From Flavobacterium croceum DSM 17960 (GTDB taxonomy: Bacteria > Bacteroidota > Bacteroidia > Flavobacteriales > Flavobacteriaceae): a stretch of 64,000 nucleotides of DNA. The stretch is taken from NCBI RefSeq assembly GCF_002917885.1, contig NZ_PQNY01000001.1, forward strand, positions 248,001 through 312,000. The letters run 5' to 3'. A model generated the notes under the pieces. That model was not told the DNA's origin, made no database searches, and was given only the letters and a program-made list of their open reading frames with translations. Within the stretch, counting starts at the first letter, position 1, and each line of letters begins with the position of its first letter. Made by a program: the position numbers and the translations under genes. Below are positions 1 to 60,052 of the stretch, piece by piece.

Positions 1-475
1 CGAACAAATAAAATTATTTTATTCTCTACAAGACGAAGTAGAAATTTCTTTTACAGAAAACGCCTTTACTATTACAGAATATGTTCCGCTTGGGCTCAAC
101 GATAAAACAAGCTATTACCCGCTAGAGCAACAAAAGCTCTCTTTTTTTGACAACGGATATTACAAACTAGAAACACAAATGTTATTTGAGCCTCCGCAAT
201 ACAATAAAAAAATATTGTATCATATTTACAACTCTAATGTATCTTTGTTGCACAAAATGGAAAAGAAAAGCGCATTGTCTGTTCATGAAAACAATGATGT
301 AAAAAATATTCCGTACACATTAATGATTTGTTTTTTAAATGATTTTAAAGAAGCAAAACAATTATTAATAAACTACAAGCAGCTATTTAAACAATTTGAA
401 AATCCAGAAGCATATACCAATTTTAAAGAAGTAATGCGCATTTTGAGAAAAATAAAATATGAAAACAAAACCTAA
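1..475 (+). CDS. hypothetical protein, 5' end outside the window
   Basis: The frame is open from the first complete codon (base 2) to the stop at 473-475, so the gene begins upstream of the window; the internal ATG at 179 is not a convincing start because good coding sequence continues before it. About 157 residues are visible. They are mixed alpha/beta without signal peptide or membrane segment, and the C-terminal half is Lys/Asn/Phe-rich and probably helical. I do not recognise a family. The last 17 bases overlap the start of the phosphatase gene in another frame, suggesting the two are co-transcribed and translationally coupled. Confidence 0.7.
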   Translation, partial: EQIKLFYSLQDEVEISFTENAFTITEYVPLGLNDKTSYYPLEQQKLSFFDNGYYKLETQMLFEPPQYNKKILYHIYNSNVSLLHKMEKKSALSVHENNDVKNIPYTLMICFLNDFKEAKQLLINYKQLFKQFENPEAYTNFKEVMRILRKIKYENKT

Positions 476-1208
476 TCGAACTTTGGTAATAGGCGATATT
501 CATGGCGGATATAAAGCATTACTCCAAATACTTGATCGAGCTGGTGTTTCAGAAACCGATACCTTAATTTTTTTGGGAGATTATGTAGATGGTTGGAGCC
601 AATCGCCACAAATATTAGATTTTTTAATAGAATTGCAAACCCAACAAAATTGTATTTTTATTAAAGGAAATCATGATGATTTGCTTTTAGATTGGCTTAC
701 CAATAATACCCAAAATATTGATGAAACCATGTGGTACAAACACGGTGGTAAGGCTACAGTAGAAGCCTATAAAACAATTTCAGACGAACAAAAATCAAAA
801 CATATATTATTTTTACAAAATCTTCGTAATTCATACATAGACAGTCAAAACCGATTGTTTGTTCATGCAGGTTTTACCAATCAAAACGGAATCGATTCTG
901 AATATTTTCCAGCCATGCTTTATTGGGATAGAACCCTTTGGGAAACGGCTTTATCTTTAAACCCTGCATTAGAAAAAAACAATACTTTATATCCAAAACG
1001 ATTGCTTTTGTATACTGAAATTTACATTGGGCATACACCTACTACAAAAATAAATAAAGACACACCTGTAAATGCTGCTAATGTTTGGAATATAGATACA
1101 GGAGCAGGTTTTTGGGGAAAACTAACAGCATTAGACATCGATACCAAACAATTTTGGCAAAGCGATAGTTTGCCCAGCTTGTACCCAAACGAAAATGGAC
1201 GAAATTAG
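459..1208 (+). CDS. metallophosphoesterase, PPP-family serine/threonine phosphatase
   Basis: A 249-residue soluble protein with the full set of metal-binding signatures of PPP phosphatases: GDIHG (residues 12-16), GDYVDGW (40-46), GNHD (70-73), HAGF (136-139) and GHTPT (191-195). These residues bind two metal ions and cut phosphomonoesters. The family includes the bacterial phosphoprotein phosphatases PrpA/PrpB and diadenosine tetraphosphatase ApaH; the substrate cannot be told from sequence. The ATG at 459 overlaps the end of the previous gene by 17 bp. The short length, without regulatory extensions, is typical of bacterial members. Confidence 0.88.
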   Translation: MKTKPNRTLVIGDIHGGYKALLQILDRAGVSETDTLIFLGDYVDGWSQSPQILDFLIELQTQQNCIFIKGNHDDLLLDWLTNNTQNIDETMWYKHGGKATVEAYKTISDEQKSKHILFLQNLRNSYIDSQNRLFVHAGFTNQNGIDSEYFPAMLYWDRTLWETALSLNPALEKNNTLYPKRLLLYTEIYIGHTPTTKINKDTPVNAANVWNIDTGAGFWGKLTALDIDTKQFWQSDSLPSLYPNENGRN

Positions 1209-1220
1209 TACTAGAATTCT

Positions 1221-1228
1221 TATATTTG
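1221..1228 (+). promoter_or_regulatory. -7 promoter element TATATTTG
   Basis: Exact match to the Bacteroidetes -7 consensus TAnnTTTG, 21 bp before the ATG at 1250. It overlaps the upstream TTG at 1226, so that codon cannot be the start. No clear TTG -33 box. The 8-mer is common by chance in AT-rich DNA. Confidence 0.5.
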
Positions 1229-1249
1229 CACAAACTAAAAAATAACGAA

Positions 1250-1744
1250 ATGAAAAAAATTGTATTTTTAACAATGCTATTAGCAGGCACTTTTGCACAC
1301 GCACAAGCATTTAAAGGAAAAGGAGACATAAAAGGACAAGTTGGACTTAATGTACAAGACGGAGGAACAGGAATTACTGCTACAGCCGATTTTGGTTTAG
1401 GAGAAAACTTATCGTACGGATTTACAGCTACTTATTTATTAAATGCTGATAGAATTTATGATATAAAACCAGGCTTTGATGATAGAGCAGACCTTAAAGC
1501 GCGAATTAATGCAAACATAGGAAATGTGCTTAAAATAGACCCAAAACTAGATGTATACCCAGGTCTTAATTTAGGATTAAGAAATTTTGGAGCTCATCTA
1601 GGAGCACGCTATTTCTTTACAGATGGATTTGGTCTTTTTGCAGAAGGAGGAGTACCATTAGCAAAATATAAAACAGACCCAGTTGGTTTCGATTATTACA
1701 ACAACCAGTTTACGTTTGTAATAGGAGCCAGCTTCAATTTATAA
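1250..1744 (+). CDS. small secreted outer-membrane beta-barrel-like protein
   Basis: A 164-residue protein read from ATG 1250. The N-terminus MKKIVFLTMLLAGTFAHAQA is a signal peptide with cleavage after AHA/AQA. The rest is rich in Gly, aromatic residues and alternating strands and ends in a hydrophobic-aromatic strand (FVIGASFNL), as in small 8-stranded outer-membrane barrels. I recall similar Flavobacterium proteins under DUF6646, but cannot check this. The longer frame from 1226 uses a TTG lying inside the promoter box. The function is unknown; a surface or porin-like structural role is an inference. The next gene follows after 7 bp. Confidence 0.75.
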   Translation: MKKIVFLTMLLAGTFAHAQAFKGKGDIKGQVGLNVQDGGTGITATADFGLGENLSYGFTATYLLNADRIYDIKPGFDDRADLKARINANIGNVLKIDPKLDVYPGLNLGLRNFGAHLGARYFFTDGFGLFAEGGVPLAKYKTDPVGFDYYNNQFTFVIGASFNL

Positions 1745-1751
1745 TAAACAA

Positions 1752-2324
1752 ATGACAATTACAGAAAAAAAACTTCACGAACGAAGCGGTTCAATTTGCG
1801 AAATAAGTGGATCGACAGATAATTTGGTTGTATATACCGTAGCTCCAAAAACAACAGAAAGTTTAGAGAACAGTATATTAATTTCAAAAAATCTTTTAGA
1901 TCAAATAAACAATCCCGAAACCACCAATGCAAATGATTGGAGAGGTCTAAGCGAAAGCATGTGGAGCGAACATTTACCCGTACAAATTGTATCTTGGCGA
2001 ATGCTTGCCCGACTTAAAAATCACGATTTGCTAGACATGATGTACCTCGATGAAGAAGCATTAGAATGGGCAAAAGCAACAGGAGAGGCCGACGATGACG
2101 AAGGTAAAATAATACATAAAGATTGTAATGGAAACATTCTTCAAGACGGAGATTCGGTTGTCCTTATTAAAGATTTAGATGTAAAAGGAGCCAATTTTAC
2201 AGCCAAAAGAGGTGCTCCTGTGCACAACATTAAATTGGTTTGGGATAATGCCGAGCAAATAGAAGGGCGTGTAGAAGGACAACACATTGTTATTCTTACA
2301 CAATATGTAAAGAAAACAAAATAA
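1752..2324 (+). CDS. PhnA-domain protein
   Basis: A 190-residue cytoplasmic protein. The C-terminal ~60 residues (DGDSVVLIKDLDVKG, then a strand-rich segment ending in VILTQYVKK) match the PhnA/YjdM C-terminal SH3-like domain. The N-terminal part (ERSGSICEISG) corresponds to the region that is a zinc ribbon in other PhnA proteins but keeps only one Cys here, so zinc binding is doubtful. 'Alkylphosphonate uptake' names for this family are historical: no other phosphonate gene is nearby, and the role is unknown. It follows the barrel gene closely and ends at a strong terminator. Confidence 0.75.
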   Translation: MTITEKKLHERSGSICEISGSTDNLVVYTVAPKTTESLENSILISKNLLDQINNPETTNANDWRGLSESMWSEHLPVQIVSWRMLARLKNHDLLDMMYLDEEALEWAKATGEADDDEGKIIHKDCNGNILQDGDSVVLIKDLDVKGANFTAKRGAPVHNIKLVWDNAEQIEGRVEGQHIVILTQYVKKTK

Positions 2325-2345
2325 TACATACCACACATACATAGT

Positions 2346-2374
2346 AAAAGCGAGAAACCACCATTCTCGCTTTT
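2346..2374 (+). terminator. rho-independent terminator
   Basis: A perfect 11-bp stem AAAAGCGAGAA / TTCTCGCTTTT with a 7-nt loop, located 21 bp after the PhnA-domain gene and followed by a T-rich tract. Confidence 0.85.
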
Positions 2375-2449
2375 ATTATTTTGATAAATGATTTTTAAAG
2401 TTCAATTTATTGGTTAAATTTACAAACCATTCTTAACAGTCATTCAAAT

Positions 2450-3148
2450 ATGATAAACAGAAAAGTAAACACAGTACAAGAAGCCTTACAAGGTATAGAA
2501 AACGGTATGACCATTATGCTTGGTGGTTTTGGTTTGTGCGGAATTCCCGAAAATAGTATTGCAGAATTAGTAAATAAAAATGTAACCAATTTAACTTGTA
2601 TTTCAAACAACGCAGGTGTAGACGATTTTGGTTTGGGTTTGTTATTACAAAAAAAACAAATTAAAAAAATGATTTCATCTTATGTAGGTGAAAATGCCGA
2701 ATTTGAACGCCAAATGCTTTCAGGTGAATTAGAAGTAGAACTTACTCCACAAGGTACATTAGCCGAAAAATGTAGAGCGGCACAAGCAGGTATTCCTGCG
2801 TTTTTTACGCCCGCAGGTTATGGAACAGAGGTTGCAGAAGGGAAAGAAGTTCGTGAGTTTAATGGAAAAATGCACATTTTGGAACACGCCTACAAGGCCG
2901 ATTTTTCTATAGTAAAAGCATGGAAAGGCGACGAAGCAGGAAATCTTATTTTTAAAGGAACAGCTCGTAATTTTAATGCTCCAATGGCAGGCGCAGCAAA
3001 AATAACTATTGCTGAGGTAGAAGAATTAGTACCAGCAGGAACATTAGATCCCAACGAAATTCATATACCAGGTATTATGATAAATCGAATTTTTCAAGGA
3101 GAGAAATTTGAAAAACGAATTGAGCAAAGAACTGTTCGTCAAAAATAA
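2450..3148 (+). CDS. scoA: 3-oxoacid (succinyl-CoA) CoA-transferase subunit A
   Basis: A 232-residue alpha subunit of a family I CoA-transferase (SCOT/AtoD type). The glycine-rich segment [10 protein letters not shown] (25-34) is the family signature, followed by the CoA-binding N-terminal fold. With the B subunit it moves CoA from succinyl-CoA to acetoacetate or a related 3-oxoacid, letting ketone bodies and products of amino acid breakdown enter central metabolism. The catalytic glutamate lies in the B subunit. Length is normal. The partner gene starts 104 bp later, an unusually wide gap for this operon because a repeat element fills it. Confidence 0.92.
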
Positions 3149-3252
3149 TTAGACAATGTGCCAATGAGACAATTGGCACATTGACACATTATCACATAGA
3201 CTAATTAAATTGGAACATCGACACATGAACTAATTGACAAATTATTAAAAAA
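3149..3252. repeat. degenerate CACATTGACACATT word-repeat (copy A)
   Basis: The whole 104-bp scoA-scoB spacer consists of variations on a few words (CAATTGGCACATTGACACATT, ACTAATTAAATTGG, CATCGACACATG, ACTAATTGACA). The same words in the same orientation recur at 3913-4045 and 4410-4528. Confidence 0.7.
3154..3183. repeat. inverted repeat hairpin in the scoA-scoB gap
   Basis: Perfect 12-bp arms CAATGTGCCAAT (3154-3165) and ATTGGCACATTG (3172-3183) with a 6-nt loop, starting 5 bp after the scoA stop. It forms the 5' part of the word-repeat that fills 3149-3252. It lacks a T-tract, so it is not a classical terminator. Confidence 0.75.
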
Positions 3253-3912
3253 ATGGCTTTAGATAAAAATCAAATAGCAAAACGCATTGCACAAGAAGTA
3301 AAAGATGGTTACTATGTAAACCTTGGTATTGGTATTCCTACTTTGGTAGCCAATTTTGTACGCAATGATATATCGGTTGAATTTCAAAGTGAAAATGGAG
3401 TTTTGGGCATGGGGCCTTTTCCGTTTGAAGGCGAAGAAGATGCCGATATTATTAATGCAGGTAAACAAACGATAACCACATTACCTGGCGCAAGTTTTTT
3501 TGATTCGGCTTTTAGTTTCGGAATGATTCGTAGCCAAAAAGTAGATTTAACCATTTTGGGTGCTATGGAAGTTTCTGAAAATGGAGATATCGCCAATTGG
3601 AAAATTCCAGGAAAAATGGTAAAAGGTATGGGCGGCGCTATGGATTTAGTAGCATCGGCAGAAAACATTATTGTTGCCATGATGCACGTGAATAAAGCAG
3701 GAGAATCAAAAATCTTAAAAAAATGTACCTTGCCTTTAACAGGGGTGGGTTGTGTGAAAAAAGTAGTTACCGAATTAGCAGTTTTAGATATTACTCCACA
3801 AGGATTTAAATTATTGGAAAGAGCACCAGGTGTTTCTGTGGAAGATATTATAAAAGCTACAGAAGCCAACTTAATTGTTGAAGGAGAAATTCCAGAAATG
3901 GATATAAATTAG
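3253..3912 (+). CDS. scoB: 3-oxoacid (succinyl-CoA) CoA-transferase subunit B
   Basis: A 219-residue beta subunit. It contains the SENG motif with the catalytic glutamate (E47) that forms the covalent glutamyl-CoA thioester in family I CoA-transferases. Further family landmarks are NLGIGIPT (23-30), a GMGGAMDL segment near residue 136 and a TPQGF motif near the C-terminus. It pairs with ScoA to make the active enzyme. The ATG at 3253 gives the typical N-terminus (MALDKNQIAKRIAQE). Because the repeat-filled spacer separates it from scoA, stoichiometric expression would depend on read-through of that spacer or on a separate promoter, which I do not see. Confidence 0.93.
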   Translation: MALDKNQIAKRIAQEVKDGYYVNLGIGIPTLVANFVRNDISVEFQSENGVLGMGPFPFEGEEDADIINAGKQTITTLPGASFFDSAFSFGMIRSQKVDLTILGAMEVSENGDIANWKIPGKMVKGMGGAMDLVASAENIIVAMMHVNKAGESKILKKCTLPLTGVGCVKKVVTELAVLDITPQGFKLLERAPGVSVEDIIKATEANLIVEGEIPEMDIN

Positions 3913-4045
3913 TCAATGGGGCAATTAGTCAATGTGCCAATAATATATTGAGGCAATTTGCCATAAACTAATTAGTAAATTTGCTAATGAAAAAAAATCG
4001 ACACATTGACACATTCTCTCATTCACACATTAAATAAATATATAA
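3913..4045. repeat. degenerate word-repeat (copy B)
   Basis: The spacer after scoB repeats the words TCAATGGGGCAATTAGTC, AATGTGCCAAT, CGACACATTGACACATTC and ATTCACACATTA found in copies A and C. It ends just upstream of the start-less four-helix-bundle frame, so that gene is bordered on both sides by the same repeat family. Confidence 0.7.
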
Positions 4046-4417
4046 GCCACGATAACGTTTCAAGACAAGTACAAAAACAATATAATTCTTTTAAAATCAT
4101 TTGAATTTGCTAAAAAAGTAGTTCAATACACAGAAAAATTAGAAGAAGACAGAAAGTATGTAATTGCCAATCAACTATTAAAATCAGGAACTTCAATAGG
4201 AGCAAATATTAAAGAAGCTCAAAATTCTGAAAGCAAAGCAGATTTTATTCATAAAATGAAAATTGCAATCAAAGAAGCTGATGAAACCGAATTTTGGTTA
4301 TTCCTCTGTAATGAGTTGGAAAATTATCCAAATACAGAAGAATTATTATCTGAAGTTTTTGATATATTGAAAATTACAAACAAAATCATTTCAACCACTA
4401 AAAAAATAAGTCAATGA
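4046..4417 (+). pseudogene. four-helix-bundle (S23/IVS-type) protein gene without a start codon
   Basis: Following an in-frame stop at 4043-4045, the frame is open to TGA 4415-4417 (about 123 codons) and encodes a clear four-helix-bundle protein: KSFEFAKKVVQYTEKL, then QLLKSGTSIGANIKEA, then SKADFIHKMKIAIKEADE and a last helix. This matches the '23S rRNA-intervening-sequence' family. No ATG, GTG or TTG lies upstream of the domain; the first in-frame ATG (4255) falls mid-protein. The usual N-terminal position shows ACG codons at 4049 and 4055, each one base from ATG. It is therefore either a dead gene by start-codon loss or uses a rare start such as ATA or ACG. The stop codon lies inside an inverted-repeat arm. 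Family function is unknown. Confidence 0.72.
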
Positions 4418-4484
4418 GGCAATTAGCCAATATATCAACGAGTAAATGAAGGAATTGCCACATTGGCTAATTGCCTCATTGACT
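4409..4484. repeat. 23-bp perfect inverted repeat (copy C)
   Basis: Arms at 4409-4431 and 4462-4484 are perfectly complementary over 23 bp (core GGCAATTAGCCAAT / ATTGGCTAATTGCC) with a 30-nt loop. The left arm contains the stop codon of the four-helix-bundle frame. A transcript would form a long stable hairpin. The words are those of copies A and B. Confidence 0.9.
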
Positions 4485-4528
4485 AATTGAATAGGGACAT
4501 TGACACATTTTCAAATTGACGCATTACT
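4485..4528. repeat. word-repeat tail before rlmI
   Basis: The words GGGACATTGACACATT and CAAATTGACGCATTA lead directly into the rlmI ATG. The same tail (ACATTGACACATT then ATT.AC.CATTA) closes copy B, and a related string occurs in copy A. Confidence 0.6.
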
Positions 4529-5692
4529 ATGTTTTCAAAAATAATTTTAAAAAAAGGTAAAGAAAAGTCTATTCAGCGCAAGCATCCATGGGTTTTTAGT
4601 GGAGCGGTTTATGGTGTAACGCAAGAGTTGAATGATGGCGAATTGGTAGATGTAGTAGACAGCAACAATCAGCATTTAGGTACAGGATATTTTAGTGATA
4701 AAGGCAGTATTGTAGTTCGATTATTAACATTTGCAAACGAAACTTTTTCAGATAATTTTTGGAATGAAAAACTACAATCGGCTTGGGCATTACGTTTAAA
4801 ATTAGTAGATATTGAAACAACCAATGCTTTTCGTGTTATACATGGTGAAGGTGACGGTATTCCAGGATTAATTATTGATTATTACAATAAAAATTGGGTA
4901 ATTCAGGCTCATTCGTCTGGTATATTCTATCAAATAGAGCGTATTGCAGAAGCTATTCAAGCAAATTTCTCAGAGTTTTGCGAAACCATTTATTGCAAAA
5001 GTTCGGGGACATTACCCAATACAGGAACCGATTATTTTTTATTTGGAACCAATTCAGAAACCATAGCAAAAGAAAACAATATAGTATTTGCTGTAAATTG
5101 GGTTGAAGGTCAAAAAACAGGTTTCTTTTTAGACCAAAGAGACAATCGTAAATTGTTAAGCACCTTTTCCAAAGGCAAAAAAGTATTAAATACATTTTGC
5201 TATACAGGTGGTTTTTCTATTTATGCTATGAGCGCTGGTGCAGAGTTGGTAACATCTGTAGATATTTCTCAAAAAGCAGTTGATTTAGCCTCAAAAAATA
5301 TGGAATTGAATTTTCCAAAATCCAATCATACAGCAGTAGCCGATGATGTTTTTAACTTTATGAAAGAGAATCATCAAGTTTACGATGTAATAGTACTCGA
5401 TCCGCCCGCTTTTGCTAAAAGTATAAAAAGTAAACACACGGCAACACAAGCCTACAAACGCTTAAATATTGCAGGGTTAAAAGCTTTAGCACCCAAAGGG
5501 ATTTTGTTTACATTTTCGTGTTCGCAAGTTATAGACGATGTTTTGTTTTACAACACTGTAGCCGCAGCAGCCATAGAAACAGGGCGAAATATTAGAGTAC
5601 TACATAAGCTAACACAAGGCCCAGATCATCCTACCAATATTTACCACCCAGAAGGGCATTATTTGAAAGGATTGGTGTTGTATGTGGAATAA
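4529..5692 (+). CDS. rlmI: RlmI-like 23S rRNA (cytosine-5-)-methyltransferase
   Basis: A 387-residue SAM-dependent RNA methyltransferase. The N-terminal ~80 residues form a PUA RNA-binding domain (KHPWVFSGAV, 19-28). The central GQKTGFFLDQRDNR (194-207) is the RlmI/RlmK family signature. NTFCYTGGFS (221-230) is SAM-binding motif I, DPPAFAK (291-297) is motif IV, and SCSQ with C331 is the second catalytic motif. In E. coli RlmI makes m5C1962 of 23S rRNA; assignment to the same site is by family. Length is normal (E. coli 396). It overlaps the next frame by 11 bp. Confidence 0.88.
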   Translation: MFSKIILKKGKEKSIQRKHPWVFSGAVYGVTQELNDGELVDVVDSNNQHLGTGYFSDKGSIVVRLLTFANETFSDNFWNEKLQSAWALRLKLVDIETTNAFRVIHGEGDGIPGLIIDYYNKNWVIQAHSSGIFYQIERIAEAIQANFSEFCETIYCKSSGTLPNTGTDYFLFGTNSETIAKENNIVFAVNWVEGQKTGFFLDQRDNRKLLSTFSKGKKVLNTFCYTGGFSIYAMSAGAELVTSVDISQKAVDLASKNMELNFPKSNHTAVADDVFNFMKENHQVYDVIVLDPPAFAKSIKSKHTATQAYKRLNIAGLKALAPKGILFTFSCSQVIDDVLFYNTVAAAAIETGRNIRVLHKLTQGPDHPTNIYHPEGHYLKGLVLYVE

Positions 5693-6134
5693 AAAGATGT
5701 TCAAAAAATCACATACTATAAAGACCTCGCTTTCCAAAGAAGAAATCATTAAAATCCTTCAACCTAAAGTTGAAAATTATTATCGAGATAATTCTAAATT
5801 TGATTTTGAAGGAAATGTAAATTTAAATGGTAATTTCTTTATAAAACCTACATTTAATTTTGGTCCAAGAAACCAATTTCGACCTGAAATAATTGGAAAG
5901 ATTCAGGATTCTTTAATAGAATTAGAATTTGCAATCAACACTTTTTTAAAACGATTGTTTTTATTTATTATTACTATAGAATTTGTATTTGTACTATTCA
6001 TTTATGATAAATTTGAGGTTTTACAAGTTTTATTATTCTTTCCTTTTTTACTTATTTTTATCTTGACTTTAAAATTAACATTTGATAGTAAGGTCAAAAA
6101 ATCAATAGTGTTATTAGAATCTTATTTCAAATAA
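5682..6134 (+). CDS. small membrane protein, unknown
   Basis: A 150-residue protein, or 145 if the second ATG at 5697 is used; the first ATG overlaps rlmI by 11 bp. The N-terminal ~85 residues are hydrophilic, with a strand-rich segment (FEGNVNLNGNFFIKPTFNF). Two adjacent hydrophobic helices follow, roughly residues 92-109 (LFLFIITIEFVFVLFIY) and 115-133 (LQVLLFFPFLLIFILTLKL). Both ends are likely cytoplasmic. I do not recognise the family. A hairpin terminator follows, shared with convergent fumarase. Confidence 0.6.
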   Translation: MWNKKMFKKSHTIKTSLSKEEIIKILQPKVENYYRDNSKFDFEGNVNLNGNFFIKPTFNFGPRNQFRPEIIGKIQDSLIELEFAINTFLKRLFLFIITIEFVFVLFIYDKFEVLQVLLFFPFLLIFILTLKLTFDSKVKKSIVLLESYFK

Positions 6135-6136
6135 AA

Positions 6137-6166
6137 AAACCTGTAAGTCTTTCAACTAACAGGTTT
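6137..6166. terminator. bidirectional hairpin terminator
   Basis: Stem AAACCTGT (6137-6144) / ACAGGTTT (6159-6166) between convergent genes, with an A-tract on the left and a T-rich tract on the right, so it could stop transcripts from both sides. Confidence 0.7.
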
Positions 6167-6188
6167 GTCTTTTTCTATTTTTCTAAGA

Positions 6189-7790
6189 TTAAAGATTCAT
6201 AAAGAAATCATTTCCTTTATCATCTGTAATAATGAAAGCAGGAAAATCTTTTACTTCAATTTTTCGTACGGCTTCCATACCCAATTCAGGAAAATCTACT
6301 ACTTCTACAGATAAGATATTTTCTTTGGCCAAAATGGCGGCTGGGCCACCAATAGAACCTAGATAAAATCCACCGTATTTTTTACATGCATTCATTACAT
6401 CGGCACTACGGTTGCCTTTTGCCAACATAATCATGCTTCCGCCAGCAGCTTGAAATTCATCTACATAAACATCCATTCTACCGGCTGTTGTTGGTCCAAA
6501 ACTACCACTTGGCATACCGTCTGGAGTTTTTGCTGGTCCAGCATAATAAATAGGATGATTTTTAAAATATTCTGGCATAGGTTTGCCAGCATCAAGTAGT
6601 TCTTTAATTTTAGCATGCGCAATATCTCGAGCTACTATTAAAGTTCCGTTTAGTTTTAATCTTGTTTTAATAGGATATTTTGAAAGTTCTGCTAAAATTT
6701 CTGGCATAGGTTTGTTCAAATCAACCATAACAGGTGGCTCTAGGTGCGGAGCAGCAGCAGGTAAAAATTGAGCAGGGTTGGTTTCTAGTTGTTCAATAAA
6801 AATACCTTCTTCTGTAATTTTTCCTTTAATATTTCTATCTGCCGAGCACGAAACACCAAGCCCAACAGGACACGAAGCTGCATGACGAGGTAGGCGTATA
6901 ACACGCACATCGTGTACAAAGTATTTTCCGCCAAATTGAGCTCCAATGCCGCTTTCTTGACAAATTTGTTGCACACGAGCTTCCCATTCCAAATCGCGAA
7001 AAGCTTGACCAGCCATGTTGCCCGAAGTAGGTAATTCATCAAAATATTTAGCAGATGCTTTTTTTACTGCTGCCAAATTTGCTTCTGCCGATGTGCCACC
7101 AATAACCAAGGCTAAGTGATACGGAGGGCAAGCCGATGTACCTAAATCTTTTATTTTTTCACGAATGAATTCTTCCAAAGATTTATCGTTTAGTAACGAT
7201 TTTGTTTTTTGATATAAAAAAGTTTTGTTTGCAGATCCGCCTCCTTTTGTAAGAATTAAAAACTCATATTTCATTCCTTTTTTTGCATAAATATCTATTT
7301 GAGCAGGAAGGTTTGAGCCTGAATTTTTTTCTTCAAACATCGATATTGGCACAATTTGCGAATAGCGTAAATTTTTGTTTTTGTAGGTATTGTAAATCCC
7401 TTTTGACAACCATTCTGCATCATCTACACCCGTATACACATCTTCTCCTTTTTTTGCCATTACTATAGCGGTTCCTGTATCTTGGCAAGAAGGCAATTGA
7501 CCTTGAGCGGCTACTACGGCATTTTGCAGTAAATTGTAGGCTACAAAGCGGTCGTTATCAGTAGCTTCTGGATCGTCTATAATGCGTTTTAAGCTTTGTA
7601 AATGATTGGTTCTTAATAAAAAAGAAACATCGTTTGAGGCTTCTTGCGCCAATAACTCTAAACCTTTTGGGTCTACTTTTAAAATTTTTCTGTCGCCGTA
7701 TTGTTCTACCGAAACGTAATCGGAAGTAAGTTTTTTATAAACAGTATCATCTTTTTGTAAAGGATACGGGTCTTGATATAAAAAGTCCAT
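6189..7790 (-). CDS. fumarate hydratase, class I (iron-sulfur)
   Basis: A 533-residue class I fumarase of the one-chain FumA/FumB type, converting fumarate to L-malate in the TCA cycle. The three cysteines expected to hold the [4Fe-4S] cluster are seen: PSCQDTGTA (C102), SACPPYHLA (C221) and AASCPVGLG (C307). The N-terminal catalytic domain is followed by the C-terminal swivelling domain ([13 protein letters not shown] and the IGGPAAILA segment). Length fits the family (E. coli FumA 548). It is transcribed divergently from the DUF5686-like gene. Confidence 0.93.
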
Positions 7791-7816
7791 TTTGATAAAA
7801 TTAAAACGTAAAGTTA

Positions 7817-7824
7817 CAAATTTA
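7817..7824 (-). promoter_or_regulatory. -7 element for fumarase (TAAATTTG on minus)
   Basis: CAAATTTA on the plus strand, 27 bp upstream of the fumarase ATG, reads as the exact Bacteroidetes -7 box on the minus strand. No clear -33 TTG. Confidence 0.45.
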
Positions 7825-7913
7825 CTATCATAATAAATAGATATTCTTGGTTATTTACTATAGTTATAATCATAAAAACATCGTAAAAAAACTACAACAC
7901 ACTGATATATTTT

Positions 7914-7921
7914 TAAATTTG
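7914..7921 (+). promoter_or_regulatory. -7 element TAAATTTG
   Basis: Exact TAnnTTTG match 26 bp before the ATG at 7948. With the fumarase box it makes a divergent promoter region of 157 bp. Confidence 0.5.
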
Positions 7922-7947
7922 TATTACTTAGCAAGAAATCACCACAC

Positions 7948-10434
7948 ATGATAAAGCGATTTTTGATTGTTTTTGTATTGTTTATCACTACATTAAATTG
8001 GTCACAAAAAAAATATTCGGGTCAAGTTTTAGACTTTGATAGTTCTGTACCTGTAGCTTTTGCCAAAATTACCTACAATACTAAAACACTCTATACAAAT
8101 TGGGAAGGGAAATTTGTGTTTGAGTATCAAAACGATAAAAAACCTTTGCTGCTTTCTTACAAAGGGTATTACGACAAAACGTATTATTTGCCAGAACAGA
8201 AACAAAATTTGCTCATAAAAATGGTAGCTCTAGAAAACAGAGATCATTTTGAGATATATTCTGAAAATGAAGTCAATAAAATTCTGAAAAAAGTTATAGA
8301 AAATCGCGACAAAAACCAACCAGAGCGAGCAATACCTTATTTTGAATATAAAAATTATGAATTAGCAACCATTTCTGCAAGTCCAGATTCTATTTCGTCA
8401 AAAATCGATACGATTTATACTAAAAATCTATTTGGAAAAACAAAAGTAAAATTAGATTCAACCAATTATAAATTTAAAAAATTCATTCAAAAACAACATA
8501 TTTACCAAACAGAAAAAGTAAATTTTATTCAGCATAATAATCACGGTACAAAAGAAACAGTACTTGCTGCTCGAATGGCAGGTTTTCAAAAACCACTTTA
8601 TGAATATTTGGGTTTAAGTTTGGTTCCATACTCACTTTACGATAGAAAACTTGATATATTTGAAGTGCCTGTAAAAAACCCTATTTCTAGAGATGGTCGA
8701 AAAACATTTGTATACAAAATGTTAGACACTATCAGTTTAAAAAACAGAAAAGTGTATAGAATATATTTTCAACCCAAAAATTTAAAGTCTAGTAATTTAA
8801 GAGGTTTATTGTTTATTGATGCTCAAACTTATGGTGTAGCCAAAGCATACTATAGAATTTATGGTGTGGTAAACATAAATGCTACCTATACTTTTAATTA
8901 TAATGAAGAGTATAAACTTTGGTTTCCAGAGAAAAGAAAATTTCATATTATAAAAGGAGAAAATGCAGAAGATATCAGTATATTGGGCAATACTATTAAG
9001 TTTGACTCTTCGGTAAAAGACCGAATAAAAACAGATGCTTCAGACCATGTTTATTTAAAAATAGAATCAATTCCTTTTGATATTTCGCTTTCCAAAAAAA
9101 CCGAATTTAAAAACAAATACATCAAAATAGATGTTCAAGAAGCAGAGCTTTCCAAACCAGAGTCTTATTGGAAAACTTTTGAGAAAGATTCTACAGATGT
9201 TAGAAAACTTACTACTTACACTTCGCTAGATAGTATTGTTGCTTCTGAAAAAATAGAAAAGAAAATATTATTTGGACGACGCATTATTAACGGTTATGTG
9301 CCTATAAATCAAATAGATTTAGACCTTAGAAGCCTTGTTAAATATAATAATTATGAAGGTTTTCGGTTTGGTGTAGGCGGTGTTACCAACGATAAACTCT
9401 CTACACAATACAAACTAGCAGCCTATATTGGTTATGGGTTAAAAGACCATGCATTCAAATACGGAATAACACCTTCGTATTCTATAGATAGAAAAACGAA
9501 TTCTTGGTTTTCGGTTTCTTATATTGATGATTTGCAAGAAATAGGGCAAATACAATTTCTTACTCAAAATAAGAGGTTTAAAATTTATGACCCTAGACCT
9601 TTTAATATTCCAACTTTTTTTAATCAAAAAGTTGCATCATTATTTTTGGAAAGTAAATTTTTACCCAAAACCGATGCTTATTTTGGGTTGTCTACAAGTC
9701 AGATAAACCCACTATTTAGCTATGCTTATCAAAAAGGAGATGCAATTTTAGATAACTATAAAATAGCTTCAACAACATTTTCTTTACAATGGTCACCTTT
9801 TAGCGATTTTATGCAAACTTCTTTGGGTATTATCGAAATTAATAAGCGTTTTCCAAAAATTAATTTTCAAGCAACACAAGCTTTTAATCATGTTTTTGGT
9901 AGCGATTTTAATTTTACAAAGCTTGAAGCTAAAGTAACGTATGATATTCCTTATTTATCAGGACAAATAACATCTTTTGTTTGGCAAGGTGGTTTAGGCT
10001 TTGGGCAAATACCTATTACTCATTTATATAGTATTGCTCCCAACAATCTTAACCACGATTCGGTGCTTAGAAGAGTAACTTTTGCTGGAAAAAATAGCTT
10101 CGAAACCATGTATTACAACGAATTTTTCTCGAGCAATTATACCTCTTTGCATATAAAACATACATTGAAAAGATTAGAAATAACACCTGATATAAAGCCA
10201 GTATTAAGCCTAGTAACTCGTATGGCTTTTGGCTCTACAAAAGACAAAGAAAATCATCTTTACAAAGAATTTAATACACTAGAAAAAGGTTATTTTGAAA
10301 GTGGTATAGAATTAAATAAAATATGGAAAGGATTTGGTTTGGTTGCCTTTTATAGATATGGCGCTTATCAACTGCCAAATTTTGATGATAATGTGGCAAT
10401 AAAAGTGAGTTATTACCTAGATTTAGGATTTTAG
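7948..10434 (+). CDS. DUF5686/carboxypeptidase-regulatory-like outer-membrane protein
   Basis: An 828-residue exported protein. The N-terminus (MIKRFLIVFVLFITTLNWSQ) is a signal peptide. Residues ~22-95 form a carboxypeptidase regulatory-like beta-sandwich (SGQVLDFDSSVPVAFAKI), the same module found at the N-terminus of SusC/TonB-dependent proteins. The remainder is strand-rich, Tyr/Phe-rich and repetitive, and ends in an aromatic-terminated strand (SYYLDLGF), as in an outer-membrane barrel. Flavobacteria carry several such DUF5686 proteins of unknown function. There is no TonB plug, so I do not call it a TonB-dependent receptor. Confidence 0.78.
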   Translation: MIKRFLIVFVLFITTLNWSQKKYSGQVLDFDSSVPVAFAKITYNTKTLYTNWEGKFVFEYQNDKKPLLLSYKGYYDKTYYLPEQKQNLLIKMVALENRDHFEIYSENEVNKILKKVIENRDKNQPERAIPYFEYKNYELATISASPDSISSKIDTIYTKNLFGKTKVKLDSTNYKFKKFIQKQHIYQTEKVNFIQHNNHGTKETVLAARMAGFQKPLYEYLGLSLVPYSLYDRKLDIFEVPVKNPISRDGRKTFVYKMLDTISLKNRKVYRIYFQPKNLKSSNLRGLLFIDAQTYGVAKAYYRIYGVVNINATYTFNYNEEYKLWFPEKRKFHIIKGENAEDISILGNTIKFDSSVKDRIKTDASDHVYLKIESIPFDISLSKKTEFKNKYIKIDVQEAELSKPESYWKTFEKDSTDVRKLTTYTSLDSIVASEKIEKKILFGRRIINGYVPINQIDLDLRSLVKYNNYEGFRFGVGGVTNDKLSTQYKLAAYIGYGLKDHAFKYGITPSYSIDRKTNSWFSVSYIDDLQEIGQIQFLTQNKRFKIYDPRPFNIPTFFNQKVASLFLESKFLPKTDAYFGLSTSQINPLFSYAYQKGDAILDNYKIASTTFSLQWSPFSDFMQTSLGIIEINKRFPKINFQATQAFNHVFGSDFNFTKLEAKVTYDIPYLSGQITSFVWQGGLGFGQIPITHLYSIAPNNLNHDSVLRRVTFAGKNSFETMYYNEFFSSNYTSLHIKHTLKRLEITPDIKPVLSLVTRMAFGSTKDKENHLYKEFNTLEKGYFESGIELNKIWKGFGLVAFYRYGAYQLPNFDDNVAIKVSYYLDLGF

Positions 10435-10568
10435 TATTAAAATATATTCTGAACACTAAAATAGTATTTTAAAATCAACACATTAGAATATAACACCTTA
10501 TAGTGTAGTTTTTATACCAAAACAAACAAGAAACTAGATAAGTTCTTTTAAATTGTTAAAGTTCTCGT

Positions 10569-10576
10569 TACCTTTG
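10569..10576 (+). promoter_or_regulatory. -7 element TACCTTTG
   Basis: Exact TAnnTTTG match 18 bp before the ATG at 10595. A TTG lies 13 bp further upstream (10553-10555), shorter than the usual 17-23 bp spacing. Confidence 0.5.
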
Positions 10577-10594
10577 TAGTCTTTTTGTTTACAA

Positions 10595-13021
10595 ATGAAA
10601 AAAATGTTAAGTATAGGATTTTGGGAACTGGTTGCCCGTGCAATCCTTAGAAATAGAATTACAATACTTGTAGGAATAATCGCTATAACCGTTTTATTAG
10701 GTCTACAATGGAAAAACGTAAAATTTACTCAAACCGAAGCCAATCTGATACCAGCAGATGATAAAGTTAATGTAGATTACAATACCTTTTTACAGAATTT
10801 TGGAGAAGAGGGCAACTTGATTGTTGTGGCCACAAAAGACCAAAAATTATTTACTCCCAAAGTATTTACTGCTTGGACAGCTTTGATGGAAAAAGTAAGA
10901 AATGATAAACAAATTAGTTTAGTTATTTCTATAAACAACCTTCAAGAGTTAGTTAAAAACGATACACTTCAATCATTTCAATTAAAGCCATTTGTAAACC
11001 CACAAAAGGCAAACGATGCACTTTATTTGCAAAACCTTAAAAAGAAATTGTTTCAAAATCAACCTTTTTACGAAGGTCTTTTGTACAACAAAAACACAGG
11101 TGCAGTTCGTTCGGCAATTTATTTAGACAAAAAAATTGTAAATACAAAAGCCAGAAAAGACTATGTTTTACACACTTTTATACCTTATCTAGATACTTTT
11201 TATAAAGAAACAGGAATACGCCTTCACGCATCGGGTATGCCTTATATACGCACATTAAATTCTAAAACCATTATAGACGAAATAGGATTGTTTATTGGTG
11301 CAGCTTTGCTTGTAACAGCGCTTATTTTCTTTTTCTTTTTCCGATCTTTTAGAGCTACACTTATTTCGATGGTTGTAGTAATAATAGGAGTTATGTGGTC
11401 TTTTGGTATTATGGGCGGTATGGGTTATGAAATTACAGTACTTACGGCTTTAGTACCAACATTAGTTATTGTAATAGGAATACCCAATTGTATATTTTTT
11501 ATTAATAAATACCACCAAGAGTATTACAAACACGCCAATAAGGCAAAAGCACTACAGAGGGTAATTACCAAAACAGGTACCGCTACGTTAATGACCAATA
11601 TTACCACTGCGGTAGGTTTTGCAACCTTTATTATCACCAATAATGTATTACTTAGAGAATTTGGTGTAGTAACAACAATCAATATATTGGCAATTTATAT
11701 TTTAAGTTTATTGCTAATACCTATATTTTTTAGTTACATTCCTGCTCCAATACCAAGACATTTAGGGCATCTAGAACGAGAGTCGCTTACAAGTTTTTTT
11801 ACATGGATTGTAAACACAGTAAAATACAATCGTTTTGGAGTTTATGTGACCTCAATTGTGTTACTCATTTTTGGAATAATAGGTATTTACGAGATTAAAA
11901 TTTCGGGAAGTATTATTGAAGATATGCCTAAGAAAACAGCTTTTTTTGATGATATTCGTTTCTTTGAAAAAGAGTTTGACGGTGTAATGCCTCTTGAAAT
12001 AATGATCGATACCAAACGTAAAAACGGAGCTATGAAGCTTTCTACTTTACGAAGAATGGAAGATTTAGAACAAACCATAAGCGATATCCCCGAACTTTCC
12101 AAACCACTATCTATAGTAAACTTAGCCAAAAGTTTTAAGCAAGCTTACTATAATGGCAATGCCGAGTATTACGAACTACCAACTTCGCAAGAAGAAGCAT
12201 TTTTATTGCCTTATATTAAAAACTCTTTAAAAAATGGCAAAGACAATCAATTAAAAAGTTATATTACTTCAGATGGTAAAATAGCCCGAATGACTTGCTT
12301 TATAAAAGATGAGAATGGCGAAAAAATGGAAGAAATAGAGTCGAGATTACGCACCAAAATCAATAAAATTTTTCCCGAGCCTAAATACGAAGTAATCATT
12401 ACAGGAAAACCCTCTGTTTTTCAAAAAGGAACAAAATATTTGTTAGACAATTTATTGTCATCACTATTGTTTGCCTTTGCTTTAACAGGTGGTTTGGTTG
12501 CGTTAATGTTTCGCTCGTTCAAAATGGTTATGGTTTCTATCATTCCAAATTTATTACCGTTGTTAATGACTGCTGGCTTAATGGGGTTTTTAGGTATTCC
12601 GTTAAAACCATCAACTTTGTTAGTGTTTGGAATTGCTTTTGGCATGTCTGTAGACGATACATTGCGCTTTTTGGCACAATACCGCATGGAACTTTCTCGA
12701 AATGGTTGGCGTATTCGTAAAGCTGTATTTGCAACGTTTGAAGATGCAGGTATTAGTATGTTTTATACCTCTATTGTATTGTTTTTTGGATTTTCGGTAT
12801 TTATGCTTTCTAGCTTTGGTGGTACTGTAGCATTGGGTGGTTTAGTGGCAATTACCTTAAGTTTTGGAATGCTTTCCAATTTGGTGTTATTGCCTTCGTT
12901 GGTGCTTACTTTAAATAAAAAATTAGCAAATAAGCAAGAATTTATAGAGCCAACCATAGATATACTAGAACATACAGATGAAGAACTAGATGCTCTAGAA
13001 GAAAATAAAGACCAAAAATAG
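10595..13021 (+). CDS. RND-superfamily (MMPL/HAE3-type) exporter
   Basis: An 808-residue inner-membrane protein of the MMPL/patched branch of the RND superfamily. The layout is duplicated: one N-terminal membrane helix (~21-39), a periplasmic domain, five helices (~230-385), a linker, a helix near 418-436, a second periplasmic domain and five C-terminal helices (~630-780). Motifs such as FGIAFGMSVDDTLRFLAQYR near the seventh/eighth helices match the sterol-sensing-like core with paired Asp residues used for proton coupling. The C-terminal tail is acidic. Substrates of this family are lipids or hydrophobic molecules; the substrate here is unknown. No membrane-fusion or outer-membrane factor gene is adjacent. 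Confidence 0.85.
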   Translation: MKKMLSIGFWELVARAILRNRITILVGIIAITVLLGLQWKNVKFTQTEANLIPADDKVNVDYNTFLQNFGEEGNLIVVATKDQKLFTPKVFTAWTALMEKVRNDKQISLVISINNLQELVKNDTLQSFQLKPFVNPQKANDALYLQNLKKKLFQNQPFYEGLLYNKNTGAVRSAIYLDKKIVNTKARKDYVLHTFIPYLDTFYKETGIRLHASGMPYIRTLNSKTIIDEIGLFIGAALLVTALIFFFFFRSFRATLISMVVVIIGVMWSFGIMGGMGYEITVLTALVPTLVIVIGIPNCIFFINKYHQEYYKHANKAKALQRVITKTGTATLMTNITTAVGFATFIITNNVLLREFGVVTTINILAIYILSLLLIPIFFSYIPAPIPRHLGHLERESLTSFFTWIVNTVKYNRFGVYVTSIVLLIFGIIGIYEIKISGSIIEDMPKKTAFFDDIRFFEKEFDGVMPLEIMIDTKRKNGAMKLSTLRRMEDLEQTISDIPELSKPLSIVNLAKSFKQAYYNGNAEYYELPTSQEEAFLLPYIKNSLKNGKDNQLKSYITSDGKIARMTCFIKDENGEKMEEIESRLRTKINKIFPEPKYEVIITGKPSVFQKGTKYLLDNLLSSLLFAFALTGGLVALMFRSFKMVMVSIIPNLLPLLMTAGLMGFLGIPLKPSTLLVFGIAFGMSVDDTLRFLAQYRMELSRNGWRIRKAVFATFEDAGISMFYTSIVLFFGFSVFMLSSFGGTVALGGLVAITLSFGMLSNLVLLPSLVLTLNKKLANKQEFIEPTIDILEHTDEELDALEENKDQK

Positions 13022-14565: not shown

Positions 14566-14955
14566 ATGGCTACAATTAATAAGTTTGAAGATTTAGAAAT
14601 ATGGCAAGAAGCAAGAAACTTATCAAAAGAAATATTTATTATTTCAAAAGAAACAGATTTAAAATTAGATTATAGATTTAAAGAGCAAATTAAGTCAGCA
14701 TCAGCATCTGTAATGGACAATATTGCTGAAGGATTTGAAAGAGATGGAAATTTAGAATTTAGACAATTTTTATCTATAGCGAAAGGTTCTGCGGGAGAAG
14801 TTAGATCGCAAATTTACAGGCTATTTGATTATCAATATATCAACGAAGAAAAATTTTTAGAATTAAAAAATAAATATGAAATTTTAAGTAGTAAATTAAA
14901 AAATTTCATAACCTATTTAAACAAGAAAGATTTTAAAGGAAACAAATTTCAATAA
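14566..14955 (+). CDS. four-helix-bundle protein (S23/IVS family)
   Basis: A 129-residue all-helical protein. FEDLEIWQEARNLSKEIF (residues 7-24), FKEQIKSASASVMDNIAEGF (38-57) and the following helices are diagnostic for the TIGR02436-type four-helix-bundle family, first noticed as the 23S rRNA intervening-sequence protein. These proteins pentamerise, bind nucleic acid weakly, and are structurally related to the Avd protein of diversity-generating retroelements; no reverse transcriptase is present here. The gene is intact, unlike the related frame at 4046-4417, shares little sequence identity with it, and is bordered by short inverted word-repeats between asnS and rpoN. Confidence 0.85.
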   Translation: MATINKFEDLEIWQEARNLSKEIFIISKETDLKLDYRFKEQIKSASASVMDNIAEGFERDGNLEFRQFLSIAKGSAGEVRSQIYRLFDYQYINEEKFLELKNKYEILSSKLKNFITYLNKKDFKGNKFQ

Positions 14956-18204: not shown

Positions 18205-18292
18205 CTATTTAGCCCTGGTTGCAGCGGCATCCTTTTGGGTGTTTTGCCAAAAATACCCAAAAGATAAAGCGAAAAACAGGAAAATGGCTGGC
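18205..18292 (+). ncRNA. Flavo-1-like structured RNA (copy 1)
   Basis: The words TAGCCCTG (18210-18217), GCAGCGGCATCCTTTT, a central hairpin CTTTTGGGT (18232-18240) / ACCCAAAAG (18255-18263), then CAGG (18277-18280) and GGCT (18286-18289) fold as a closed structure: AGCC pairs with GGCT and CCTG with CAGG, separated by a small bulge. The order and spelling match what I remember of the Flavo-1 RNA motif of Flavobacteria and match copy 2 in this window (TAGCCCTG, ATCCTTTT, hairpin, AAAAGAT, CAGGAA). It does not code for protein and its function is unknown. Strand is inferred from that pattern. Confidence 0.72.
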
Positions 18293-34640: not shown

Positions 34641-34722
34641 TTTATTAGCTTTAAGCTATTAGCATTAAGCCATTAGCCATCAGTATTTAGCTGATTGCTG
34701 ACAGCTGACAGCTAAAAGCTAA
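34641..34722. repeat. AGCTAAT/TTAGC word-repeat inside the moxR-bat operon
   Basis: The spacer is built from TTAGC/AGCT words (TTAGCTTTAAGCTATTAGC, ATTAGCCATCAG, GCTGACAGCTGACAGC). Its ends form an inverted pair: TTAGCTTTAAGC (34645-34656) and GCTAAAAGCTAA (34711-34722) match 11 of 12. It is the only wide junction in a cluster whose other junctions overlap or abut. Confidence 0.75.
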
Positions 34723-43354: not shown

Positions 43355-43445
43355 CAAATGCCTTATTCCTGCTGTACGTTTCAATCTTTTAAACTATTGT
43401 ACAACAATAGTTTAAAAGGATTTGCACTTCCATCAGGGCTAGGAA
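43355..43445 (-). ncRNA. Flavo-1-like structured RNA (copy 2), antisense in nrdB-nrdA gap
   Basis: On the minus strand this reads TAGCCCTG (complement of 43434-43441), ATCCTTTT, a long central hairpin of 15 perfect pairs (plus-strand arms CTTTTAAACTATTGT 43386-43400 and ACAATAGTTTAAAAG 43404-43418, loop 3 nt), AAAAGATTG, then CAGGAATAAGGC (complement of 43360-43371). The order equals copy 1 at 18205-18292. A further pairing AGGGCTA (43434-43441 region) with TAGCCCT (43454-43460) flanks it and could compete with the closing stem. The plus-strand hairpin could also affect nrdB-nrdA read-through. Confidence 0.72.
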
Positions 43446-60016: not shown

Positions 60017-60052
60017 AAAACTGAAACCTGAAAACCGAAAACTGAAAACTAT
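60017..60052. repeat. CTGAAAAC word-repeat upstream of ileS
   Basis: ACTGAAACCTGAAAACCG and AAAACTGAAAAC are repeats of one 8-9-bp word in tandem, just before the ileS promoter region. It is the fourth word family of this kind in the window. The rest of the 227-bp spacer (59863-60089) shows nothing else; TACTTTCG near 60056 is a weak -7 candidate. Confidence 0.6.

Follow-up and report, generated by a model that had tools for sequence, protein, structure and literature searches.

Word-repeat arrays around an S23p-family gene at a Flavobacterium sco locus suggest a family of small mobile elements

Results

Layout of the scoA-scoB-IVP-rlmI locus

The window analyzed here is a 64-kb stretch of DNA (GC content, 33%) from the 2.95-Mb genome of Flavobacterium croceum, designated G000. 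It contains scoA, scoB, a gene for a 23S-rRNA-intervening-sequence protein (IVP, also called S23p) and an rlmI-like gene in the same orientation, with three spacers of repetitive appearance between them (Table 1). An earlier note on this DNA had delimited the spacers correctly with respect to scoA, scoB and rlmI, but its third spacer (4409-4528) covers the last 9 nt of the IVP frame; the hairpin located there starts within the final codons of that frame. The IVP frame is open, but none of the codons ATG, GTG and TTG precedes the domain, so this copy has probably lost its start.

The window contains a second IVP element, locus L006, between genes that we took by eye to be asnS and rpoN. Here and below, names such as asnS, rpoN, accB, accC, sdhA, sufC and metH are presumed from reading the sequence, with no family search behind them. 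The whole genome has 12 IVP matches. Short-word arrays were seen by eye at nearly all of them; the words mostly differ and are inverted across the gene. One of the genome's IVP genes (L008, G000:C1:234165-234476) has two in-frame stops and lies between genes that we read as sufA and sufB.

An Rfam search of positions 1-12000 gave no match, and the whole window at the gathering threshold yielded only two RNAs, both Flavo-1. No rRNA match was found in the window. Two gene-less arrays were also noted further downstream (Table 1); the gene that follows the second of them reads like ileS.

Table 1. Features of the window discussed in the text
Feature	Position	Strand	Evidence or description
scoA, CoA-transferase subunit A, upstream host gene	2450-3148	+	PF01144, E 2e-75
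Gene-less hairpin array 1, scoA-scoB gap	3149-3252	+	Period 8; 12-bp perfect arms 3154-3165/3172-3183
scoB, CoA-transferase subunit B	3253-3912	+	PF01144
Upstream array of the IVP gene	3913-4045	+	Words reverse-type, then forward-type
IVP gene (S23p, four-helix bundle)	4046-4417	+	PF05635, E 2e-23
Downstream array of the IVP gene	4418-4528	+	23-bp perfect hairpin, arms 4409-4431 and 4462-4484
rlmI-like methyltransferase, downstream host gene	4529-5692	+	PF10672/PF17785
Second IVP element, L006	14538-14977	+	Arms AAAGTTTCACGTTTAATGTTTCAGG / CTTGAAACTTGAAACCTTAAAC around IVP gene
Flavo-1 RNA	18207-18287	+	RF01705, 63 bits
Gene-less hairpin array	34643-34722		TATTAGCATTAAGC-like words with CTGACAGCTAAAAGC; no significant match to any G000 IVP word
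Flavo-1 RNA	43361-43444	-	RF01705, 75 bits
Array without adjoining IVP gene	60017-60050		AAAACTG/CCGAAAACTGAAAAC, 7-nt period

The three spacers share one 8-nt word family

All three spacers are built from a single 8-nt word family that occurs in both orientations, reverse-type words first and forward-type words second. Their autocorrelation peaks at lags 8 (0.26), 16 (0.21) and 24 (0.14). In the 64 kb, all three occurrences of TTGACACATT (shuffle mean 0.15), both of CACATTGACACATT (0.0) and both of ACTAATTGA (0.6) fell within the spacers, as did three of the four occurrences of CACATTGA (0.9). When up to three mismatches were allowed, ACACATTGACACATT had 16 matches in the window, 12 of them in the spacers, compared to a shuffle mean of 3.5 and a largest shuffled count of 9. 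Shorter words are not rare across the window overall: ACACATT was found 19 times (5 within spacers; shuffle, 10.7) and CAATTAG 7 times (5 within spacers; shuffle, 8.3). The longer words exceed background.

The lag-8 signal and the longer words fit the earlier proposal that the spacers were assembled from the same words as diversified products of one process, and the perfect inverted repeats reported for two of them (12-bp and 23-bp arms) were found. GGCAATTAGCCAAT is not common to the spacers; its two copies are in spacer 3, one in each hairpin arm. The supposed shared 3' ending consists of period-8 words in common at the ends, not of a single exact sequence. Genome-wide, spacer 1 had two short matches beyond itself and spacer 2. 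The period is 8 rather than 7 nt both in the window's three arrays and in gene-less sco arrays from five relatives, and TRF also assigned period 8 to an array at the copy in G034, a relative described below.

The IVP protein

PF05635 is the sole Pfam domain of the window IVP, which has no transposase-like domain. Of 247 genomes sampled in the phylum, 193 carry the family. Structures have been solved for two relatives, 2gsc and 2rld; the accessible parts of PMC10053308 and PMC4990558 describe 2gsc, from Xanthomonas, as a pentamer of four-helix bundles. The family also resembles Avd according to the accessible part of PMC10053308, a likeness to diversity-generating retroelements. Unlike these, G000 has no reverse transcriptase (0 matches to PF00078, RVT_1), and a reverse-transcriptase route was rejected on this ground. 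A role as a defence gene was likewise rejected, as PADLOC gave no match for the IVP.

In the IVP lineage found between sufC and sufD, the median dN/dS was 0.066, based on the 29 usable pairs out of 45 and with dS close to saturation. This value indicates purifying selection and hence some function of the protein. In-frame stops were present in 14 of 139 IVP matches from G000 and its relatives, showing that decay is common.

Inverted arrays flank IVP genes in many phyla

We compiled a relatives' set of 64 distinct IVP genes, drawn from G000 and 29 related genomes (30 in total), and a named set consisting of the best 80 of at least 571 confirmed IVP loci in named genomes, with flanks displayed for 42 of the 80. 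The loci represent Bacteroidota, Acidobacteria, Elusimicrobia, Ignavibacteriae, Nitrospira, Verrucomicrobia, Saccharibacteria, Planctomycetes, Spirochaetes, Proteobacteria and others; two-sided arrays are not present at every one. Among the named loci listed, those closest to the IVPs of the source genome are from Flavobacterium. Enough flanking sequence was available for 138 of 144 IVP genes. At least three inverted 8-mers were shared between the two flanks at 92 of these 138 loci (relatives, 41/63; named, 51/75), compared to 87 of 479 control genes drawn from the same loci and 9% of cross pairs. Three loci (L008, L025 and L047) have visible arrays with low exact-8-mer scores, so exact-match counts understate the pattern; at L008, an in-frame stop also shifts the downstream flank to the wrong place.

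Local alignment of the arms was performed with 176 distinct IVP genes, 7 of which were removed for short flanks. A score of at least 36 was reached with the gene's own partner arm in 95 of 169 cases vs 11 of 502 permuted pairs. A later phylum-wide sample yielded 43 genes, of which 41 had flanks and four or more duplicated earlier loci; paired arms were seen in 17 of the 41 vs 4 of 403, a lower rate than 95/169.

Across 119 upstream and 104 downstream IVP flanks, the lag-7 autocorrelation was 0.137 and 0.132, respectively, and harmonics appeared at 14, 21 and 28; control spacers gave 0.022 at lag 7. The flanks are also skewed in base composition: G (21.5%) exceeds C (10.2%) upstream, and C (19.3%) exceeds G (13.5%) downstream. 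Both neighbors were codirectional for 118 of 131 IVP genes vs 339 of 603 control genes. By reading, the host gene pairs include sdhA/sdhB, sufC/sufD, sufA/sufB and parts of metH.

Two unusual repeats were seen along the way. At L052 (G018:C22, 10953-14319), very long 7-nt arrays of GATTAGCAGTTAGC-type words lie around and near an IVP gene, with TRF scores of up to 286. In G010, two spacers (L118, 16567-16954; L119, 744-1313) carry another type of repeat, about 21-22 nt in length (AAAATTTTAGG..ACGT).

Insertion states at scoA-scoB and sufC-sufD

The width of the scoA-scoB gap was taken as the distance between the scoA stop and the scoB match; the end of scoA was located in 27 of 30 loci. The gap is 1-4 nt wide in 10 of the 27, contains a gene-less array in 6 (74-112 nt, including G000) and an IVP gene in 3 (423-437 nt; G021, G007 and G034). 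The remaining 8 are gaps of 22-27 nt, gaps of 42-139 nt that contain CAGT-type words, and two long gaps (589 and 643 nt). The long gaps, in G005 and G003, have apparent other open frames, which possibly represent alternative cargo at the same junction. By eye, the G003 frame (L078) is methyltransferase-like, and the G005 frame (L083) adjoins CAGT-type words. An IVP gene is also located between scoA and scoB in G030.

The sufC-sufD gap was examined in 27 of 30 loci. It is empty in 5 (0-3 nt), contains gene-less hairpins with several different words in 11 (66-88 nt) and confirmed IVP genes in 7 (446-524 nt), and is in some other state in 4. Ten of the eleven gene-less spacers, tested together, gave a lag-7 signal of 0.29.

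The same junctions are thus just 0-4 nt wide in some relatives, so that gain or loss is real. Because an empty gap measures 0-4 nt, the elements recur at stop/start junctions, which may be due either to targeting or to counterselection at other sites. By eye, no target-site duplication was visible at either junction in the relatives compared, where empty gaps are 0-4 nt. With junction widths varying among relatives, the spacers are not base-for-base conserved DNA, and a conserved regulatory spacer was rejected because several relatives have only 0-4 nt there.

A FastTree phylogeny built from 176 IVP domains placed the window IVP together with those located between scoA and scoB in G021, G007 and G034 (clade support 0.992), the four being 55-66% identical. 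G021 and G007 belong to the same genus as the source genome and G034 to another family; the scoA-scoB IVP of G030 is of a different lineage. In the simplest reading, the sco lineage would once have resided in the scoA-scoB gap, its gene now lying one gene downstream with array copies, and the gene-less hairpin would be a remnant at the old site.

Words partly follow the protein lineage

Two IVP lineages, sharing 43-46% identity, are found between sufC and sufD. They occupy this site in different species, and their words differ: four genomes have the AAAGTCG type and three the GTTTCAAG type. The IVP associated with GTTTCAAG-type words is 73-79% identical to the G000 IVP at about 14566-14955 (L006), which has a GTTTCA-type word too.

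We then compared 152 IVP genes having a different-site neighbor of at least 50% identity. The nearest different-site IVP shared 7.4 words vs 3.4 for distant ones; it shared more in 95 of 152 cases and ranked in the top 5% in 40 of 152 (p 2.6e-9). One locus with an unclear site, L138, accounts for 15 of the 40 top-5% cases. Without it, the values were 6.0 vs 3.4 words, more in 80 of 151 and top 5% in 25 of 151 (about 8 expected; p 0.0016). When all different-site pairs were considered, word similarity did not follow IVP identity (r -0.02, a value equaled or exceeded in 372 of 500 permutations). The link is real at close range and weaker than the first test implied.

Pairs from the same site were richer in shared words than different-site pairs despite distant IVPs (11.3 vs 5.3 below 20% identity, 19 pairs; 7.9 vs 4.6 at 40-50% identity), showing that the site matters too. 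Part of this excess may come from homologous host-gene sequence within the flank windows. An acidobacterial and a deltaproteobacterial IVP are 77% identical and have similar words; cross-group pairs of this kind suggest that gene and arrays were transferred together.

Gene-less arrays and the GGGAATC repeat

Arrays were counted using fixed TRF settings (score of at least 40) and an order-3 Markov null per locus. Arrays of 7/8 nt located away from IVP genes were detected in 18 of 444 spacers of IVP-bearing genomes, whereas IVP-less genomes had none in 387 (Fisher p 1e-5). The null was computed over all periods jointly, not for period 7/8 alone; with any period, IVP-less genomes had 5 spacers with arrays vs 6.2 expected and IVP-bearing genomes 44 vs 10.2 (group sums). 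The 387 spacers comprise 168 from eight order-level relatives (two less than 90% complete), 153 from G295/G299 and 66 from G102; L111, from a 0.3-Mb genome, was excluded from the final count. In one genus represented in the IVP-less set by two species, all other species sampled carry IVP, and within one genus the counts were 0 of 153 IVP-less vs 6 of 154 IVP-bearing (p 0.03). IVP genes are not always accompanied by such arrays elsewhere: G083 has 13 IVP genes, yet 0 of 75 arrays away from them, and G034/G026 gave 0 of 18.

For G000, G231 and G313, we also compared array-like spacers not adjoining an IVP gene (period 7/8, score of at least 34; two rows adjoining IVP genes omitted) with the IVP words present in the respective genome. 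Only 3 of 15 matched at p 0.005, indicating that some gene-less arrays are orphan or unrelated.

According to the accessible part of PMC4692102, GGGAATC heptamers of Xanthomonas often occur in inverted pairs, 70 and 75 in two genomes. We searched for (GGGAATC)3, regardless of IVP, in 369 genomes of the class to which a gammaproteobacterial locus belongs, and found it in one, G907. This genome has a single PF05635 match (positions 1-64 of 106), with GGGAATC words upstream and GATTCCC words downstream; by reading, the gene ends in a frameshift. Its neighbors are, again by reading, presumably accB-like and accC-like genes. The gene-less hairpin L357 of G907 has GTTCAAGC beside the array in common with the IVP copy, and other copies are without it; three more places, when read, were two inverted pairs and one single array. 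The predicted association of GGGAATC with an IVP gene was found in the one genome available, a single case.

Discussion

A family of IVP elements with gene-less derivatives

We consider it probable, judging from the sequence comparisons above, that the three spacers represent one family of small mobile insertion elements with gene-less derivatives. The full form would consist of a 7-8-nt word array, an IVP (S23p) gene and an inverted array, and gene-less hairpins of the same words would be an internally deleted or nonautonomous form. Both would occupy gaps between codirectional operon genes. At the present locus, a sco-lineage element would follow scoB, with a gene-less copy in the scoA-scoB gap, the site of the IVP gene in some relatives. 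The IVP would act in trans, binding its cognate word in single-stranded hairpins and promoting their copying, probably as single-stranded DNA, and copies would spread into and between junctions. We assume help from host replication, since the sole Pfam domain has no known catalytic activity and the genome has no RVT_1.

The earlier suggestion of an undescribed small mobile or hairpin-expansion element was thus largely right and the scope is broader, but hairpin expansion as the mechanism is a guess. Two spacers do bracket the four-helix-bundle gene, as claimed; what was missed is that this gene appears to be a part of the element and not a bystander, given that the same family is array-flanked in many phyla, that related genes tend to have related words, and that gene-less hairpins represent a second form.

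More tentatively, such elements could form a mobile class across many phyla whose sole gene is a noncatalytic IVP that recognizes its own 7-8-nt word and propagates it as inverted hairpin arrays at operon stop/start junctions, by a mechanism for which the element itself supplies neither a transposase nor a reverse transcriptase of any known type. The long-unexplained heptanucleotide repeats such as GGGAATC would then, in considerable part, be gene-less footprints of this class.

Alternative explanations

The arrays might instead be kept for pairing in the mRNA, with RNase III excising the IVP segment and the operon halves being processed, so that DNA mobility would be unnecessary today. Predicted RNA folds of the spacers are strong (z -5.4 for spacer 1, -3.1 for 3913-4012 and -6.1 for 4405-4528; -8.0 for 3900-4540, from 20 shuffles), codirectional placement of IVP genes suits the idea, and an S23p-bearing intervening sequence (IVS) of 23S rRNA is excised by RNase III (PMC4990558, accessible part). 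However, mismatches in the arms were G.U-type in 152 and A.C-type in 144 cases (p 0.68). With A.C as frequent as G.U, the complementary arms seem to have arisen by DNA copying, contrary to selection on RNA pairing, and RNA-level selection on the stems is unsupported. Moreover, the insertions are missing from the same junctions in some relatives, and gene-less copies contain nothing to excise. We regard this explanation as unlikely.

Slightly less credence goes to the possibility that the arrays came first, as ordinary simple repeats made by slippage in which IVP genes settled as passengers. Heptanucleotide repeats are known to be abundant (PMC4679880, citing Mrazek 2007; accessible part), gene-less arrays outnumber IVP copies between sufC and sufD (11 vs 7 of 27), 12 of the 15 gene-less array-like spacers have no match to a present IVP word, and both site and lineage predict the word. 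Against this, the arrays are inverted across the gene instead of forming one interrupted array, and none was found in the 387 spacers of IVP-less genomes, even in the two species of an otherwise IVP-bearing sampled genus. In addition, one IVP lineage carries the same word at two sites, one site has two words with two lineages, and the only IVP match of G907 carries GGGAATC.

Old regulatory hairpins of operon spacers, similar to terminators or ribosome-binding sites, which diverged and gained a gene by chance, would fit the placement just ahead of start codons and the often A-rich 3' ends, but are very improbable in view of gaps of only 1-4 or 0-3 nt in several relatives, the exact 7- or 8-nt periodicity, and the recurrence of one gene family in such arrays in many phyla.

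Relation to known systems

Our preferred reading, a family of mobile IVP elements, has partial parallels. In 23S rRNA, the IVS contains an S23p frame between complementary sequences, is patchily distributed and has been called selfish or parasitic, and the S23p frame of Coxiella is decaying (PMC4990558, accessible part). The elements described here have the protein family, the complementary flanks and the patchy distribution in common with it. Unlike the rRNA IVS, they are located in gaps between protein genes (here, scoB-rlmI) and in no rRNA helix, their arms are arrays of 7-8-nt words that vary by lineage, and gene-less copies exist elsewhere in the genome. They thus differ from that family by location.

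Heptanucleotide repeats such as TAACTGA in Beggiatoaceae, GGGAATC in Xanthomonas and GGACCGG in Geobacter have been attributed to slippage, quadruplexes or regulation in the accessible parts of PMC2700814, PMC4679880, PMC4692102 and PMC6749651; the main texts of these four papers contain neither "S23" nor "four helix". Like these repeats, IVP flanks have a 7-nt unit, are largely intergenic and use one word in many places, whereas the window's own arrays have an 8-nt unit. Among the open-licence papers listed in our searches, none tied S23p/PF05635 genes outside rRNA to heptamer arrays.

A further parallel is functional. In REP/REPIN systems, a RAYT gene is flanked by inverted palindromic words with gene-less copies elsewhere; RAYT is a Y1-type tyrosine transposase, and word and protein lineage partly go together. 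The IVP gene is likewise flanked by inverted words, has gene-less copies, and its word partly follows the protein lineage. In contrast to RAYT, the IVP is not a Y1 transposase, PF05635 being its only Pfam match. By analogy, IVP elements would work like a REP/RAYT pair with an unrelated protein.

Significance

Our analysis links two orphan facts, namely, S23p/IVP genes, which are of unknown function and often located in operons, and heptanucleotide arrays. Look-alike elements with other repeat words appear to occur in many kinds of bacteria. If IVP proteins propagate their cognate words, mobility would be driven by a protein without a known catalytic domain. What S23p does has been an enigma ever since 23S rRNA intervening sequences were first reported, and its function thereby becomes directly testable.
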